Of a stretch of 42,498 nucleotides of DNA, positions 11,499 through 42,498 are shown in pieces. The notes under the pieces are model-generated. The model made no database searches. It saw only the letters and a list, made by a program, of their open reading frames with translations, and was not told the DNA's origin. The position numbers were made by a program, and so were the translations under genes. The stretch's first letter is position 1, and every line of letters starts with the position of its first letter. Source of the stretch: Bacteroidota bacterium (GTDB lineage: Bacteria; Bacteroidota; Bacteroidia; Bacteroidales; FEN-979); contig JAPLDO010000051.1 in NCBI GenBank assembly GCA_026391715.1, positions 1 through 42,498 of the forward strand. Reading direction: 5' to 3'.

Positions 11499-12674
11499 TT
11501 GGCAGGAATTTATATCCATATTCCTTTTTGCAAACGCAAATGCCATTACTGCAATTTCTTTTCTCTCGCATCACAGAAAATGAAGGAGCCTTTTTTAAAG
11601 GCATTGAGAATTGAAATGGAGTTGACGCGGGATTACCTCGCAGGCGCGGAGGTGAATACAGTTTATTTTGGCGGGGGAACGCCGTCGGTGTTTAGTCCGG
11701 GGGAATATTTAATGACCCCACCCCCCGGCGCCCTCCCCAAAAAGGGAGGGGGAGAGACCCCACCCCCCAACCCCCTCCCCAAAAAGGGAGGGGGAGTGGT
11801 GAGAGAGGTTACGCTGGAACTTAATCCGGAGGATGTGACCGAGAGTTATGTGGAGGAGTTGAAGGATACGTGGTTTAACAGGTTCAGCCTGGGAGTTCAG
11901 TCGTTTGCCGATGATGATCTGACTTATTTGAACCGGTCGCACTCTGCCGCACAGGCTTTACGCGCGGTGAAATTGTTGCAGAAAACCGGGTACGAAAATA
12001 TCAGCATTGACCTTATTTACGGGGTTCCTTCATCAAGCGGGCAGCTATGGAAAAAGAATCTCGAAATTGCATTTTCTCTTGATGTTCCGCATATTTCGGC
12101 TTACGCGCTCACTGTGGAACAGCGAACGCCGCTCGCCTGGATGATCAATAAACAACGGTATGCTCCGGTGAATGATGAAGACCAGATTTCCCAGTTTCGG
12201 CAGGTAATGCAGATGGCAAAGGAACATGGATTTCAGCAGTACGAAATTTCAAATTTTTCCAAACCCGGACGCCATTCAGTTCACAATACCAATTACTGGA
12301 ATGGTATCCAATATCTTGGTTTGGGACCTTCGGCACACAGTTACAACGGTAATTCGCGGCGCTGGAACATATCCAATCTCACGGAATACATTGCCTCCAT
12401 GGAGAAAGGCGAATTGAAATATGAGGAGGAGATACTCTCGCCTGCTCAGAAATACAACGAATATGTGATGACTTCGCTTCGGACGATGTGGGGATGCAGC
12501 CTGGAGAAGATTATTTCGCATTTCGGATTTCGCATTGCGGATTTTTTCAGCCAAGGCGCTTCCCGGTTTGTTAAACAAGGGTTACTTGTGGAGTTATCCG
12601 GCGTTTATTTTCTGACTGATGAAGGGAAGCTTTTTGCGGATCGGATTGCGGGTGAGTTGTTTTTCCTCTGCTAA
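11499..12674 (+). CDS. hemW: Radical SAM heme chaperone HemW, carrying an in-frame repeat insertion
   Basis: This 391-residue protein starts with the classic MAGIYIHIPFCKRKCHYCNF, with the CX3CX2C cluster at Cys11/15/18 for the [4Fe-4S] and SAM. VYFGGGTPS (56-63), RFSLGVQSF, SIDLIYGVPSSS and HNTNYWNGIQYLGLGPSAHS follow as in other HemW proteins. The start is a TTG; the match to the family N-terminus leaves little doubt. Residues 72-99 read as two 14-residue units (TPPPGALPKKGGG, TPPPNPLPKKGGG) that do not belong to HemW. They replace or extend the usual helix before VTLELNP, making this loop about 15 residues longer than normal. HemW delivers heme to apoproteins; whether this copy still works is unknown, but the frame and all cluster ligands are intact. 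Confidence 0.93.
   Translation: MAGIYIHIPFCKRKCHYCNFFSLASQKMKEPFLKALRIEMELTRDYLAGAEVNTVYFGGGTPSVFSPGEYLMTPPPGALPKKGGGETPPPNPLPKKGGGVVREVTLELNPEDVTESYVEELKDTWFNRFSLGVQSFADDDLTYLNRSHSAAQALRAVKLLQKTGYENISIDLIYGVPSSSGQLWKKNLEIAFSLDVPHISAYALTVEQRTPLAWMINKQRYAPVNDEDQISQFRQVMQMAKEHGFQQYEISNFSKPGRHSVHNTNYWNGIQYLGLGPSAHSYNGNSRRWNISNLTEYIASMEKGELKYEEEILSPAQKYNEYVMTSLRTMWGCSLEKIISHFGFRIADFFSQGASRFVKQGLLVELSGVYFLTDEGKLFADRIAGELFFLC
11714..11796 (+). repeat. Tandem pair of G/C-rich hairpin modules inside hemW
   Basis: Two copies (11714-11755 and 11756-11796) of a 41-42-bp unit start GACCCCACCCCCC and end CTCCCCAAAAAGGGAGGGGG, a perfect small hairpin. The unit length of 42 keeps the hemW frame. The same module occurs at 16394-16437, 16496-16535 (inverted) and 28721-28775, so it is a dispersed element, not part of the ancestral gene. 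Confidence 0.9.
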
Positions 12675-16261: not shown

Positions 16262-16324
16262 GTAGCAGTTTGTTTTTAGAATCAGAAATTTACACTATAA
16301 ATAACAGGTTGAATATCTAAAGTT

Positions 16325-16596
16325 GAGACTACTCCGAAAAGTCATTTTTTTTGCCACATTGCTACAATCATCACGTTACTGCCCCTGATTTTAGACCCCT
16401 TCCCCCCGACCCCCTTCCCCAAAAAGGGAAGGGGGAGTCCCGTGCTAATATGCAATAGCTCTGTTAATCATGGTATTATGCCGATTAGCACGTTACCCCC
16501 CTCCCTTCTTTGGGGAGGGGTTGGGGGTGGGGTCCAATGTAGGGTTATATGACAAATAGCAGTTTATTTATGTTATTGACTTTTCGGAGTGGACTC
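16325..16596. mobile_element. MITE-like element with terminal inverted repeats and a 6-bp AAAGTT direct repeat
   Basis: The left end GAGACTACTCCGAAAAGTCA (16325-16344) and the complement of the right end GAGTCCACTCCGAAAAGTCA (16577-16596) match at 18 of 20 positions. AAAGTT occurs immediately outside both ends (16319-16324 and 16597-16602), as expected for a target-site duplication. The 272-bp body has no coding frame. It holds two copies of the G/C-rich hairpin module in opposite orientation and a central inverted repeat (CGTGCTAAT / ATTAGCACG at 16441-16449 and 16484-16492), so a single strand could fold into one long hairpin. The right direct repeat includes the stop codon of the ArsC-like gene. 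A transposase to mobilise it is not in the window. Confidence 0.85.
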
Positions 16597-16600
16597 AAAG

Positions 16601-16948
16601 TTAGCGCTTCATCAGCGGTTCTATTTCACTTACAGGATCTCCGATAACGGCTTTGTATTTTCCTTCAACAATCGGTCGCTGAATGAGTTTTGGGTTCTGA
16701 ATCATTATCATTATCAATTCATGATTCTCAAAATTTTTCCCCTTGAGGTTCTGTTTGAAGTAATCCTCCTGGGTGCGTAAGAGTTCGGCAGGTTTTCTAT
16801 TCAGTTTCACAAGGAGTTTTTCGAGGTCTTTTTCTGAAAAAGGGTTTTTGAAGTATTCCACAATTGTGAACGTTTTACCCGATTCCTTAAGGAATTGCAC
16901 TCCCGCGCGTGATTTTTTACAGGAAGGGTTATGATAAATCGTGAACAT
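16601..16948 (-). CDS. ArsC/Spx-family (arsenate-reductase-like) thioredoxin-fold protein
   Basis: The 115-residue protein starts MFTIYHNPSCKKSRAGVQFL, with the single active-site Cys10 of the ArsC/YffB/Spx family, followed by VEYFKNPF, KPAELLRTQEDYFK and a conserved QRPIVEGKYKAVIGDP near the end. The Arg-Pro pair is the usual second marker. In known members this fold reduces arsenate using glutathione or glutaredoxin, or acts as a redox regulator. There is no ars operon here, so a plain redox role is equally likely. It is 90 bases downstream of prfB, past an octamer array. Its stop codon lies inside the direct repeat flanking the inverted-repeat element. Confidence 0.87.
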   Translation of the reverse strand: MFTIYHNPSCKKSRAGVQFLKESGKTFTIVEYFKNPFSEKDLEKLLVKLNRKPAELLRTQEDYFKQNLKGKNFENHELIMIMIQNPKLIQRPIVEGKYKAVIGDPVSEIEPLMKR

Positions 16949-19079: not shown

Positions 19080-19094
19080 TATTCCGCTACCTCG

Positions 19095-19204
19095 CTACTT
19101 CTCTACTTCTCTACTTCTCTACTTCTCTACTTCTCTACTTCTCTACTTCTCTACTTCTCTACTTCTCTACTTCTCTACTTCTCTACTTCTCTACTTCTCT
19201 ACTT
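19095..19204. repeat. Octamer microsatellite (CTACTTCT), about 13.7 copies
   Basis: There are thirteen exact copies of CTACTTCT from 19095 to 19198, then a partial CTACTT. On the minus strand the unit is AGAAGTAG, and the last copy supplies the final Lys codon and TAG stop of the TPR gene (19201-19199). An exact array of this kind is likely to vary in length between strains. Confidence 0.95.
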
Positions 19205-26681: not shown

Positions 26682-26702
26682 GTGTTTCGGATTAAAAGTT
26701 CT

Positions 26703-26773
26703 GTAAAGACGCAATGCATTGCGTATTTACTATTGTTCTATTGTTCTAAAGAGACGCAATGCATTGCGTCTCT
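26703..26773. repeat. Pair of GACGCAATGCATTGCGTC palindromes
   Basis: Two palindromes (26703-26730 and 26750-26773) share the core GACGCAATGCATTGCGT and are separated by a TATTGTTC direct repeat. The second overlaps the 3' end of the HMGL gene. Further copies lie at 39118-39139, 40913-40940 and 40997-41060. Confidence 0.9.
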
Positions 26774-27625
26774 ATATTTATAAAAGACTCGCGACGCCAT
26801 GTTACAAGCCTCCCAAAAAGCCGTTTGAGCAATATTAACATTTATTCTCTTTATTTCTGCAAACTCCAGCAGATTCTCAGTCTTCAGGTTGCCAAGCGCC
26901 TCTTTCCCAGCCATGGGACAACCTCCCCAGCCATTGATGACGCTATCAAAGCGACGACATCCGGCATTCCAGGCAGCGTCAACTTTTTCAAACCACCCTT
27001 CGTTTGTGGTGTGGAGATGTAAGCCGAACTCAACATCAGGATACATTGGTATCAGCGTTGAGTAAACTTTGGAAATCAGGCTCGCATCAATTTCAATGGA
27101 GACATTTGATAATGGAATAATCCTTGCGCCAGCCTGAAATAGTTTCCCAGTCCAGTCGGTCAGAAGTTCAATGCTCCATTCATCTCCATAAGGATTTCCG
27201 AAAGCCATCGAGATGTAAATCACCGCTGTTTTGCCGCTCAACTCACACAGGTTTACAATATATTTCACTGTTTCCAGCGATTGTTCAACCGTTGAATTCA
27301 GATTCATTTTCATAAAAGCGGGAGAAAACGAAAAGGGGTATGAAATATGCGTCGCCATTTCGAGATCTGAGATTATTTCAGCGCCGCGTCTGTTCACGGC
27401 AAGCGCCATAATATTGGAATGGTTTCCTGTGAAATCAAGTTTTTGAAGCGTTTCCAGCGAGTCAGCCATCTGCGGAATTGCCTTTGGCGAAACAATGCTG
27501 CCGGTTTCAACGGTATCGAAACCAACGCGCAGGAGATGGTTGATGTAACCAATCTTTTCCTCCGTCGGGATGAGCCGTGAAAACCCCTGCATTCCTTCGC
27601 GCGGCGATTCAATGATCTTCATCAT
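26738..27625 (-). CDS. HMG-CoA-lyase-family protein, second of the pair, C-terminus made by a palindromic repeat
   Basis: The 295-residue TIM-barrel protein shows ESPREGMQGFSRLIPTEEKI in place of the usual RDGLQ, then TVETGSIVSPKAIPQMADS, FGLHLHTTNEG (metal His pair) and GWGGCPMAGKEALGNL with the catalytic Cys of HMG-CoA lyase. The Asp of the RD pair is Glu here. HMG-CoA lyase cleaves HMG-CoA to acetyl-CoA and acetoacetate in leucine breakdown. The last residues, RDAMHCVSLEQ, and the stop are read from the palindrome at 26750-26773, not from gene-derived sequence. It overlaps the upstream HMGL gene by four bases (ATGA). Confidence 0.85.
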   Translation of the reverse strand: MMKIIESPREGMQGFSRLIPTEEKIGYINHLLRVGFDTVETGSIVSPKAIPQMADSLETLQKLDFTGNHSNIMALAVNRRGAEIISDLEMATHISYPFSFSPAFMKMNLNSTVEQSLETVKYIVNLCELSGKTAVIYISMAFGNPYGDEWSIELLTDWTGKLFQAGARIIPLSNVSIEIDASLISKVYSTLIPMYPDVEFGLHLHTTNEGWFEKVDAAWNAGCRRFDSVINGWGGCPMAGKEALGNLKTENLLEFAEIKRINVNIAQTAFWEACNMASRVFYKYRDAMHCVSLEQ

Positions 27626-28632: not shown

Positions 28633-28652
28633 AATTTTATGGTTCTATTATT

Positions 28653-28777
28653 GATTCCACTCCTAAAAGTCATTTTTTTGCTACATTGCTACAATCAGCA
28701 CGTTATTGCCCCTGACTTTAGACCCCTTCCCCCCGGTCCCCCTCCCTTTTTGGGGAGGGGTTGGGGGTGGGGTCCAT
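28653..28777. mobile_element. Second, internally shortened copy of the inverted-repeat element
   Basis: The left end GATTCCACTCCTAAAAGTCA and the next 70 bases (TGCTACATTGCTACAATCAG, CACGTTATTGCCCCTGACTT and on) closely follow the left half of the 16325-16596 element. The right part (TGGGGAGGGGTTGGGGGTGG and on) follows its right inner arm. The central loop and the right terminal repeat are missing, so it looks like a deletion derivative. It fills the gap between the HMGL-pair promoter region and the end of the second hybrid kinase. Confidence 0.85.
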
Positions 28778-28793
28778 TGTTCTACACTCCCTG

Positions 28794-38063: not shown

Positions 38064-39107
38064 ATGAATTGTTCTCTTAGTCTATATTTCTTTTCCGGCA
38101 CCGGAAACGCCCGTAATGTTGCAGGTTGGTTTTCGGGCGCGGCACAGGAAAGAAACATTCCGGTTCATGCTTACGATATTGCCAAAATGGACCGGAAGCG
38201 GATCGAACCCCCTCCTGTGGGTTCTTTGATCGGATTTATAAGCCCTACACATGGATTCAACTACCCGCCGGCAATGATGTACTTTATCTTCCGCTTCCCA
38301 CAGTCGAATGGAAACAAGGCTTTTCTGATGAATACCCGCGCAGGGCTGAAACTTTCCAAATGGTTTGTTCCTGGACTTAGCGGCATTGCTTTGTGGCTAT
38401 CGGCTCTGGTCCTGCTCGTTAAAGGCTACCGAATAGTGGGATTGCGGTCCATTGACCTGCCGTCGAACTGGATTTCCGTTCATCCCGGCGTGAAGGAAAA
38501 GGTAGTAAAATCAATGTATCGTCGCTGTAAACGGATTACTCTGATTTTTGCAAACAATATCCTCGATGGAAAGCGGGTTTATACAGCTTTCCGCGACATA
38601 ATCCAGGATTTGCTGATCTCTCCGGTTAGTATCGGTTATTTTTTCGTTGGACGTTTCATTCTTGCCAAATCATTCTATGCCAGCGACGCCTGCGACAAAT
38701 GCGACCTGTGCATCAACAACTGCCCGGTGAAAGCCATTCTTACAGTTGACAATCGTCCCTTTTGGTCATATCGTTGCGAAAGCTGTATGCGGTGTATGAA
38801 TGATTGCCCCAAACGGGCTATCGAAACAGCGCATGGCTACATCATTGGCATTATGTGCCTGCTCAACATGGGAATTATGATCTGGTTCTGGAAAGGAGTT
38901 GGCAAATTTATAGCCATCCCGGCAGATAATGGCTGGGCACAATCTGGAGTTACAATTACAGGTTGGGTTCTTACTTTCCTCGTGATGGTTGTATCTTATC
39001 GTATCTATCATTATCTCTTAAAAATACATGCCGTCAGACAACTATTTTATTATACTTCATTTACAAGATACAGGTTCTGGCGACGTTATAAACCGTCGCG
39101 GAAATAG
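38064..39107 (+). CDS. EFR1-family protein: flavodoxin-like domain, two [4Fe-4S] clusters and membrane helices
   Basis: This 347-residue protein starts with a flavodoxin-like FMN phosphate loop, SLYFFSGTGNARNVAG (6-21), and FISPTHGFNYPP. Two Cys4 ferredoxin motifs follow: CDKCDLCINNCPVKAI (about 215-230) and CESCMRCMNDCPKRAI (about 242-257). Two C-terminal membrane helices (about 264-285, 300-320) anchor it. The arrangement is that of EFR1 family ferrodoxins, in which FMN and Fe-S centres probably pass electrons at the inner membrane. The partners are unknown. The next gene, DUF3109, also has a Cys-rich metal-binding look. Confidence 0.88.
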   Translation: MNCSLSLYFFSGTGNARNVAGWFSGAAQERNIPVHAYDIAKMDRKRIEPPPVGSLIGFISPTHGFNYPPAMMYFIFRFPQSNGNKAFLMNTRAGLKLSKWFVPGLSGIALWLSALVLLVKGYRIVGLRSIDLPSNWISVHPGVKEKVVKSMYRRCKRITLIFANNILDGKRVYTAFRDIIQDLLISPVSIGYFFVGRFILAKSFYASDACDKCDLCINNCPVKAILTVDNRPFWSYRCESCMRCMNDCPKRAIETAHGYIIGIMCLLNMGIMIWFWKGVGKFIAIPADNGWAQSGVTITGWVLTFLVMVVSYRIYHYLLKIHAVRQLFYYTSFTRYRFWRRYKPSRK

Positions 39108-39117
39108 AACAGTAATA

Positions 39118-39139
39118 GAGACGCAATGCATTGCGTCTC
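39118..39139. repeat. GAGACGCAATG palindrome between the EFR1 and DUF3109 genes
   Basis: A perfect 22-base palindrome with the same core as the pair at 26703-26773. It lies just upstream of the true DUF3109 start and contains a misleading in-frame TTG. Confidence 0.92.
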
Positions 39140-39163
39140 CACAGAACGATTAATAACCATGCC

Positions 39164-40310: not shown

Positions 40311-42498
40311 CTACCTGTTAACAACAACCTTTCGCACTTCTGTCTGATCTCCAAGCGTCAACTTCAGCAAATACGCCCCATTCGGCAAATCCCGAAGGTT
40401 CATAGTCGCCTTGTTCAATCCTGTTTTGCAGGCGATCCGGTCAGCTTTTGCAACCACAACACCTGCCAGATTCATCATCTCAGCGCTGAATGTGCCTTCC
40501 TGTTCCATCAGATATTCAATATTGATTATATCCGATGTCGGATTAGGATAAACCGTAACCATGTTGTTATGCGCAACGGATGATGTATTACCGGCATCCG
40601 CGATAGTTAGTATCGCGTTACCAATAACATTTCCGTCGCCATCCGCCAATTCGGATAATGGGTTGGGGTTTAATGTGAAACGGAGGACGAAGGACGACGG
40701 ACGAAGGACGAGAGACGAGGGGCGTGCGTGTATTAACATCAAGGTTTTATCACGAGAGACATTAATCGGATCCAACGATACCCAACCGATATTCAAAATC
40801 CCGTTGCGTGTTTCAAACCAAGGGTCAATGCCGCCGTTTTCCGGCATGGTAACGCCCGTAATTTCAATCAACGATGGATCAAAATCCAACATCAACGTGA
40901 TGGCGCCGATTTGTAGGGACGCAATGCCTTGCGTCTCCATCCGAACCGGGAACGTAATTTCCGGCGTGATGGGCAACGTTCCGCGGTTTTCCAACCGTAG
41001 AGACGCGATGCATCGCGTCTCTACCGCGCATCGCGTCTCTACCGCGCATTGCGTCTCTACCGCCGTTTTATTCCCGGTTGGCGGTAAATATGACCCATTC
41101 ACATCGCCGGCGCACAAACCCATTATATCGCGGGTAACATTGGCGCATTCCACCGGAATTTCAGATATGGAGGTTTCAGCAGTCAGTCCCGAAAAAACCC
41201 ATTTGGGTATTTCAAAGTATGGCGTCGGACTTCCCCAGCCATATTTGGCAGCCATACGAATTGCGTCAGCGTCAGCCGTTGTAATAACCGGAGGAGTATG
41301 CGGCGACTTTACATCAGCGGTTATCCTTACAACAGGAGGATTTACGGGCAGATAGGAAACATTTGTAGCATGGCGTTGAACCAGCAGATAGTCGGTGTTG
41401 TTTACGCCGTTCCAGGTTTGCCACTGTCCGCTTGGGTCGGCAGAAGCTATATCAAGACTGTATGTTCCGTTTACCAGTCCGGTAAATTCATAAAAACCGG
41501 TGGCGCCTGTGGTGTAAGGCGGTCTTATGGCAACTCCGCCCTGCTTGAGGGTGATTTTCAAACCATCAAGCGGGGTTTTTGGATTATTGTCGTATTTGGC
41601 ATAACCGCTGATGTGGTAATCGCTGAACATAGTAATCTCGGTTGAAGCCGAATTTTCGATCAAACACTCACCGCTCTTAACAACCGCCCTGAAATATGTA
41701 TTCGCAGTCAGGTTGGTTGCTGTGTAAGTGGTATTTGTTGTTCCAGGTATATCAATCCAGGTTGGGCTGCTTGGTAAACTATTCGAGAGTCGGTCGCTTT
41801 CCGGGTTGGGTGTATTTGATGTTTCCCGCTTGGCGTTACTTGATGGTCCGTTGGATAAATACTGCCATTTCAGCACGCTTCCAACCTGATTTGTAAGAGT
41901 AAGCAACGTACTGTTTGTACCGTAACAGACAATTCCGCCGCCCGTAGCTGTGCCGCCAACGGTGGTGGGGTCAACAGTAATAGTCACAACGTTTGTTATT
42001 AGCGTTCCGCAACCGCTCGCTGAGGTTTGAGTCTGCCGGTAGTAAGTGGTTTGCGTCAATGCGCCGGGCTGGTAAGTAGTTCCGGTGGCGCTGCCAATAT
42101 CCGAGAAATTCGTATTGTCTGTGGAGGATTGCCACTGATAAGCGTAAGGTGTATTTCCTCCGGTGGGAGCAACACTTGTTAATTGCGCCGGCATTGTATT
42201 ATAACAGATGGACTGGCTCACTGCCGCCGAACCCACAGTAAAATTGGGATAAACCGTAATAGTCACCGCGTTTGTTGTAAGCGTTCCGCAACCGCTGGCA
42301 GAGGTTTGAGTTTGCCGGTAGTAAGTGGTTTGAGTCAATGCGCCGGGTTGATAAGTGGTTCCTGTCGCGCTGCCAATATCCGAGAAATTCGTATTGTCGG
42401 TGGAGGATTGCCATTGATAAGCGTAAGGCGTATTTCCTCCCGTTGGCGAAACACTTGTTAATTGCGCCGGAGTTGTATTGTAGCAGATGGTTTGGCCT
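40311..42498 (-). CDS. C-terminal part of a T9SS-exported repeat protein with dockerin-like and cohesin-like segments, cut by the right edge
   Basis: The frame is open to 42498, so the N-terminus is outside; about 728 residues are seen. First come near-identical Ig/PKD-like repeats of 93 residues (YQWQSSTDNTNFSDIGSATG, TTYYRQTQTSASGCGTL). A carboxypeptidase/SdrB-like fold follows (YHISGYAKYDNNPKTPLDGL), then a dockerin-like stretch (DYLLVQRHA, DADAIRMAAKYGW, CAGDVNGSYLPP). A cohesin-like domain comes next: LMLDFDPSLIEITGVTMPEN and GILNIGWVSLDP. The end is a typical T9SS type A sorting domain: VYPNPTSDIINIEY and GAYLLKLTLGDQTEVRKVVV. The protein is exported and anchored by the type IX system. 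Several in-frame repeat insertions are listed separately. Confidence 0.88.
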   Translation of the reverse strand, partial: GQTICYNTTPAQLTSVSPTGGNTPYAYQWQSSTDNTNFSDIGSATGTTYQPGALTQTTYYRQTQTSASGCGTLTTNAVTITVYPNFTVGSAAVSQSICYNTMPAQLTSVAPTGGNTPYAYQWQSSTDNTNFSDIGSATGTTYQPGALTQTTYYRQTQTSASGCGTLITNVVTITVDPTTVGGTATGGGIVCYGTNSTLLTLTNQVGSVLKWQYLSNGPSSNAKRETSNTPNPESDRLSNSLPSSPTWIDIPGTTNTTYTATNLTANTYFRAVVKSGECLIENSASTEITMFSDYHISGYAKYDNNPKTPLDGLKITLKQGGVAIRPPYTTGATGFYEFTGLVNGTYSLDIASADPSGQWQTWNGVNNTDYLLVQRHATNVSYLPVNPPVVRITADVKSPHTPPVITTADADAIRMAAKYGWGSPTPYFEIPKWVFSGLTAETSISEIPVECANVTRDIMGLCAGDVNGSYLPPTGNKTAVETQCAVETRCAVETRCIASLRLENRGTLPITPEITFPVRMETQGIASLQIGAITLMLDFDPSLIEITGVTMPENGGIDPWFETRNGILNIGWVSLDPINVSRDKTLMLIHARPSSLVLRPSSFVLRFTLNPNPLSELADGDGNVIGNAILTIADAGNTSSVAHNNMVTVYPNPTSDIINIEYLMEQEGTFSAEMMNLAGVVVAKADRIACKTGLNKATMNLRDLPNGAYLLKLTLGDQTEVRKVVVNR
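40685..40726 (-). repeat. Heptamer array translated inside the cohesin-like domain
   Basis: GGACGAA, GGACGAC, GGACGAA, GGACGAG, AGACGAG and GGGCGTG run without gaps on the plus strand. On the coding strand they read ARPSSLVLRPSSFVLR, inserted between LMLIH and FTLNPN of the cohesin-like domain. The array keeps the frame (42 bases). Confidence 0.85.
40913..40940 (-). repeat. Palindromic repeat inside the T9SS protein (degenerate copy)
   Basis: GGGACGCAATG and CTTGCGTCTCC form one diverged copy of the palindrome. It codes for METQGIASLQ. Confidence 0.8.
40997..41060 (-). repeat. Triple palindromic repeat inside the T9SS protein
   Basis: A full palindrome AGAGACGCGATGCATCGCGT is followed by two half copies (GCATCGCGTCTCTACC, GCATTGCGTCTCTACC). 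They are read in frame as VETQCAVETRCAVETRCIAS between the dockerin-like and cohesin-like segments. Confidence 0.9.
41940..42498 (-). repeat. 279-bp tandem repeat coding Ig/PKD-like domains
   Basis: Two copies are visible: the GCCGGTAGTAAGTGGTTTG start occurs at about 42035 and 42314, a 279-base period (93 residues). Long stretches are identical between copies (for example the CCGAGAAATTCGTATTGTC region), so they were duplicated or homogenised recently. The array continues past the edge. Confidence 0.88.

Follow-up and report, generated by a model that had tools for sequence, protein, structure and literature searches.

We conclude, with a probability of about 0.7, that the insert in this hemW gene consists of two tandem copies of a C-rich, REP-like palindrome dispersed in the genome, and that it lies in a tolerant helix–strand loop and is turned over by copying. 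Across the genus, the hemW loop often has hairpin DNA in its reading frame, and the type of hairpin differs among species. The case is a variant of a known intragenic-repeat phenomenon, and it is real, well beyond chance. The window, that is, the whole stretch of DNA analysed, comprises 42,498 nucleotides of contig JAPLDO010000051.1 from a Bacteroidota genome (G000 below). The features of the gene are as follows.

11499-12674, + strand: hemW (radical SAM heme chaperone), TTG start, 391 aa; TIGR00539, 260.4 bits.
11688-11804, + strand: HemW loop of variable length, preceded by GGGTPS and followed by EVTLELNPED, 39 aa long in this protein; seen in relatives and in structure models.
11714-11755, + strand: hairpin unit 1, 42 nt, encoding TPPPGALPKKGGG (residues 73-85) and E86.
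11756-11797, + strand: hairpin unit 2, 42 nt, encoding TPPPNPLPKKGGG (residues 87-99).

The protein belongs to HemW, with 260.4 bits against a TIGR00539 cut-off of 205.4, and both CxxxCxxC (residues 11-18) and HNxxYW (262-267), the latter described as a HemW motif in PMC10320005, are intact. At 11714-11797, two head-to-tail 42-nt units, identical at 38 of 42 positions, are read in an open frame as residues 73-99. The original prediction had described repeat units in frame in HemW, falling between two conserved motifs and matching the hairpin of a MITE-like element, and each of these claims is upheld, the same hairpin being present at 16413-16432 and 28740-28759. Decay of the gene was rejected, on the weak grounds of a full-length frame and intact motifs. 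The mean identity of this HemW to the rest of the genus (0.687) is the lowest of eight compared (0.708-0.742 in the seven others), and the genome is the most diverged of the eight in HemW, in a PfkB-family kinase and in RecO.

Structure models agree with the earlier claim that part of a helix has been lost at the site. The helix that precedes the insert site covers residues 67-80 in the model of a relative without the insert, where the next strand starts at 83; in the model of the window HemW, the helix spans 67-70, pLDDT falls below 50 at residues 78-99 and the next strand starts at 103. Residues 1-24 are also poorly modelled in the window protein and better in the insert-free relative. The best solved structure match was E. 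coli HemN (1OLT); structure alignments used 34 and 28 of 80 loci. In radical SAM barrels, a helix–strand connection of this kind is generally away from the active site. The HemW loop is length-tolerant and, on these models, probably disordered. The insert itself is most likely without function and is merely tolerated by the protein; a cost to HemW is conceivable, given the divergence of this genome and the poorly modelled residues 1-24.

The hairpin belongs to a large family in this genome. The stem pattern CCCTCCCCNNAAAGGGAGGG, allowing at most three mismatches, matches the window four times where 0.01 matches are expected; the 5.0 Mb genome gives 127 strand-hits and a reversed control gives one, so that many short palindromes are dispersed through the genome, as in the REP class. 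The hairpin places counted were 106 (60 fetched regions and the window; hits on C28, C124 and C247 were left out of the fetched regions), a few of them being chance matches such as L052. The C-rich unit is laid out as ACCCCACCCCC-(spacer)-CCCCTCCCC-AAAAA-GGGAGGGG and holds no stop codon in any of the six frames, so that an insertion of 3n nucleotides leaves the reading frame open. Tandem pairs are also present at other genome sites. Two hairpins in opposite orientation, with starts 80-90 nt apart, occur in 21 cases, the consensus of which is a larger element with outer inverted repeats (TTGAGNCCACTCCGAAAAGTCA) and a less conserved right end. The window holds one such element and part of another.

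16310-16611, no strand assigned: MITE-like element with inverted repeats at its outer ends and hairpins of the hemW family inside.
28644-28780, no strand assigned: second, partial MITE-like element with the same hairpin as hemW.

In the window, the MITE end sequence stands at just three positions, 16329, 16577 and 28657, and hemW is not among them. We therefore rejected the insert as a MITE insertion, since the terminal inverted repeats are missing, and nothing shows that a MITE brought the hairpin there. Within 25 nt of the 106 hairpins we counted GTAG 6 times, CTAC 9 times, CGTC once and GACG twice, and neither GTAG nor CGTC held the fixed position beside the hairpin that is expected of a REP tag. 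Plasmid records gave no match. Elsewhere in the window, copies of a GACGCAATGCATTGCGTC palindrome occur at 26698-26775, 39103-39154 and 40908-41076 (recO of G018, L263, has a similar palindrome in frame), and 19085-19204 is a tandem array of the 8-nt unit CTCTACTT.

This genome has eight in-frame hairpins, in six genes and read in four different frames: hemW (2), the PfkB-family kinase (2), RecO, UvrA, a Fib_succ_major-domain protein and an ABC ATPase. The UvrA hairpin is read on the opposite strand, and that of the ABC ATPase is located after the ATPase domain. Overlaps with other ORFs were discounted on visual inspection as short, spurious or, for L052, a chance match. A dispersed palindrome thus lies in frame in several unrelated genes, as Rickettsia palindromic elements do. 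The hairpin pair of the kinase matches that of hemW at 79 of 83 positions (95% over 85 nt) with unrelated flanks, which implies that the doublet was copied as a unit or that both pairs had a single common source. No stem of 8 was found at the kinase site in 16 sister kinases.

To place the hemW insert among relatives, we used the HemW matches obtained in 41 of 43 family genomes (two had none at that cut-off). Loops were read in 30 family genomes with loci and in 57 further contig sequences, leaving out 11 family genomes whose matches lacked a locus and L196, which has no HemW frame. Within the genus, 18 of 19 loops are longer than 24 residues (28-80), that of G026 having 23. Outside it, a plain 24-residue loop was read in 67 of 68 HemWs, and the sole exception, G039, has a 48-residue loop with a hairpin of similar make-up. 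Stems of at least 8 occur in 11 of the 19 genus loops, versus three such hairpins in 20,082 nt of remaining hemW sequence. A TCTCC-type hairpin is found in nine genus species, whereas G000 and G016 have just the TCCCC type; G020, one of the nine, has a TCCCC-type unit as well, in tandem. The intact hairpin is missing in the loops of G009, G010, G014, G023, G024, G025 and G026. In hemW of G015 (L025), a different repeat (CGCAGAGACGCAAAGGCGCA...) replaces the hairpin. One HemW outside the genus (L145) has a 24-residue loop with the internal repeat SIAHLALCIAHLAL, perhaps another repeat-filled loop. Neither an empty site nor a target duplication was readable at hemW; the nearest HemW was about 70% identical and no strain-level relative was found.

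A private insertion in this hemW is ruled out, because relatives have the site in common: it is shared by the genus, and ten sisters have related but differing hairpins in the same loop. The original prediction had seen a non-coding repeat becoming protein sequence, as with the Rickettsia elements. The part that stands is that a dispersed palindrome lies in frame in an open, conserved gene, with which it would be translated; the insertion is not private to this genome. That prediction was to be abandoned if relatives had the same insert with domain-like conservation; inserts are indeed present in relatives, but such conservation is absent. A new conserved protein domain is likewise ruled out, since 8 of 19 loops have no hairpin, two hairpin types occur, G015 has another repeat, and the number of hairpin copies per loop runs from 1 to 4 (nine TCTCC-type sisters, truncated copies counted).

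In the nine TCTCC-type sisters, the 36-nt element is nearly identical, with mainly a 4-nt loop varying; the exceptions are one further base in G022 and a stem mismatch in G019. Identity stops within a few bases on either side of the element (50-nt stretches inspected in the nine sisters), and 36 pairwise comparisons of 4-fold sites in the rest of hemW give a mean agreement of 0.41 (0.31-0.53). Seven of eight shared insert codons are identical in all nine, versus 17 of 147 shared flank codons, taken outside alignment columns 70-170 (Fisher 7e-6, on related genomes and without correction for phylogeny). The TCTCC type is present in hemW of 9 of 13 genomes that have such hairpins elsewhere, versus none of six that do not (Fisher 0.011, again uncorrected for phylogeny). 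The exact TCTCC pattern, CCCCTCTCC-N2-8-GGAGAGGGG, has no hits genome-wide in G000 and G016, whose hemW has the TCCCC type. G000 groups with G020 in a three-gene tree (support 80/84). The variant base of the G022 hemW copy recurs in another copy of that genome and in other genera. In G013, G017 and G020, the 21-mer of the TCTCC type, allowing at most two mismatches, occurs nowhere but in hemW; in G018, two of its three hits are in hemW, the remaining one having two mismatches. TCTCC stems exist elsewhere in these four genomes with a different 5' part, so that a matching donor is missing in those drafts, which counts against a simple re-seeding of hemW. In a putative short-chain dehydrogenase (assigned by eye), G012 and G025 have hairpins of different types at roughly the same position.

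Loops of the kinase, RecO and UvrA were compared in the same way, these genes being picked since G000 has the hairpin in them. A loop was called positive if it contained a stem of at least 8, or if some 21-nt stretch matched itself at 17 or more positions when shifted by one fixed lag in the range 5-24. The rule picked out 11/19 loops for HemW, 7/17 for the kinase, 5/17 for RecO and 13/19 for UvrA (the kinase had no match in G010 and G011; RecO had none in G013 and was not parsed in G010), and equal-length control windows in the rest of the same genes gave 50/950, 0/850, 22/850 and 40/950, respectively. Taking the four loops together without G000, 32 of 68 sister loops were positive versus 112 of 3,600 control windows. 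The repeats of sister kinase, RecO and UvrA loops are mostly 7-nt arrays, a lag of 7 being found in 6 kinase, 1 RecO and 11 UvrA loops; intergenic 7-nt repeats are known elsewhere (PMC4679880). One repeat is common to RecO and UvrA in G022, and another to the kinase and UvrA in G018. Loops of different genes have 13-mers in common in 8 of 103 pairs within a genome versus 14 of 1,839 between genomes, although six of these eight fall in G000, which had served to choose three of the genes, and two remain without it. The recO-loop palindrome of G019 and G021 occurs at 1 and 3 places in those genomes, so not all loop palindromes are high-copy repeats. At the UvrA loci (L273-L291), 16 of the 19 genus genomes have the match inside an open frame 1,642-1,838 codons long; in this genome the frame holds two UvrA copies in tandem, and the YRL-FSFN loop differs widely among species.

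We then examined the transposases that could move such repeats. Y1 transposases (E up to 0.01) are present in 15 of 19 genus genomes and absent in G014, G017, G023 and G024, where the TCCCC pattern gives 0-2 strand-hits. Y1 and hairpin counts do not rise together, G012 having 10 Y1 and 4 hits and G000 one Y1 and 98 hits. A search of this genome with PF01797 returned nothing at E 0.001 and one RAYT at 0.01, whose domain is split by in-frame GTAG-type palindromes and which, at 57.4 bits, stays below the NF047646 cut-off of 80. The palindromes in this RAYT (L215; G000:C200:3000-6200, - strand) are GTAGAGACGGGTTTCAAACCCGTCTCTAC, read as ETGFKPVS. No cognate RAYT flanked by the hemW-type hairpin, as expected of a REP/RAYT system, was found in this genome. 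Among 26 Y1 loci examined, which are part of all Y1 matches, a GC-rich perfect hairpin stands at 21 and a related C-rich hairpin only at L231; by pattern, L209, L213, L224, L225 and L233 lack a Y1 frame, and L209, L218, L219, L223 and L227 lack a hairpin.

A single ancestral insertion in the genus, passed down vertically and maintained because selection acts on the hairpin as DNA or RNA (an mRNA pause or stability element, for example) or on the peptide, would account for the almost identical 36-nt element that nine species have in the same place, and for the three genomes (G013, G017 and G020) without another hit of its 21-mer. We consider it unlikely: the intact hairpin is absent, decayed or replaced in the seven loops listed above and in G015, G000 and G016 have the other hairpin type, and copy number varies, with truncated units. 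Selection on an RNA hairpin is further weakened by the folding of the insert, which had no clear advantage over 200 dinucleotide shuffles (z -1.43; 12/200 as good); at gathering scores, Rfam returned two tRNAs from the whole window and nothing further.

If the loop is unconstrained, ordinary replication slippage together with low-complexity drift, with no mobile element involved, would fit the tandem units, the truncated units (G021) and the 7-nt arrays of the UvrA and kinase loops. Slippage alone, however, can neither place one dispersed hairpin in hemW, the kinase, recO and, on the other strand, uvrA, nor explain how nine species whose synonymous sites have diverged strongly come to have one and the same 36-nt element, and we regard it as quite improbable. 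An assembly or binning artefact is extremely improbable: this draft genome is in 256 contigs, the repeat is high-copy and the titles of all 80 relatives begin with MAG, yet the frame is open, six genes here contain the hairpin in frame, and inserts stand at the same site in MAGs that, by their titles, come from different sampling projects.

Under the copying explanation that we prefer, copies would arrive, or be overwritten, by copying from other repeats, either through insertion by a REP-type transposase or through ectopic gene conversion between repeats. Tandem pairs may form during or after arrival; out-of-frame events would be removed by selection, and old copies would decay. In this genome, the present pair probably displaced an older TCTCC-type copy together with part of the helix, using the resident TCCCC type. 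We lean, by a modest degree, towards a broader statement: that fixed loops of housekeeping proteins in this uncultured Bacteroidales genus are standing landing places for repeat DNA, that species fill the HemW, PfkB-type kinase, RecO or UvrA loop differently (with palindromes or 7-nt arrays), in frame and with faster turnover than the gene, and that the sequence of these loops may be set by repeat dynamics rather than by descent. What merits pursuit is the way in which repeats are exchanged in fixed protein loops throughout a genus. If true, repeats inside genes would become a process that can be traced species by species in conserved enzymes, through arrival, duplication, type switch and decay. 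It would also offer a natural test of the tolerance of core proteins to foreign sequence, and of the way short repeats move when no transposase is known for them.

In the open-access literature, we found no report of this hairpin or of genus-wide loop turnover. Rickettsia palindromic elements, the classic example, described in a review (PMC10969869) as palindromic DNA of about 150 bp in frame in unrelated genes, are alike in that respect, but the hemW unit is 42 nt long and from Bacteroidales, and the likeness is to that description, not to a sequence. As in the bacterial MITEs of the same review, a repeated element here has outer inverted repeats, and it carries two hairpins; the hemW copy is without those ends. 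REP/RAYT systems resemble this genome in their dispersed palindromes, single and paired, and in a RAYT with in-frame REPs, as reported for RAYT subclass 2.4 (PMC6006769), whereas the one RAYT here carries a GTAG-type palindrome and not the hemW-type hairpin. Along with the Rickettsia elements, the closest known cases are the intragenic GTAG and CGTC REPs of PMC3733652, short palindromes located in ORFs of known proteins including uvrA, with dimers or groups making up more than half of the inserts; the same source describes different REPs at about the same recB site in X. campestris and X. oryzae. Like these REPs, the hairpins described here lie in ORFs, occur in pairs and have uvrA among their hosts; unlike them, the hemW unit is C-rich and has no consistent GTAG or CGTC tag. 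In contrast to the intragenic REPs of PMC3733652, one loop is here traced over 19 species with switching of hairpin type, and other repeat classes fill comparable loops.
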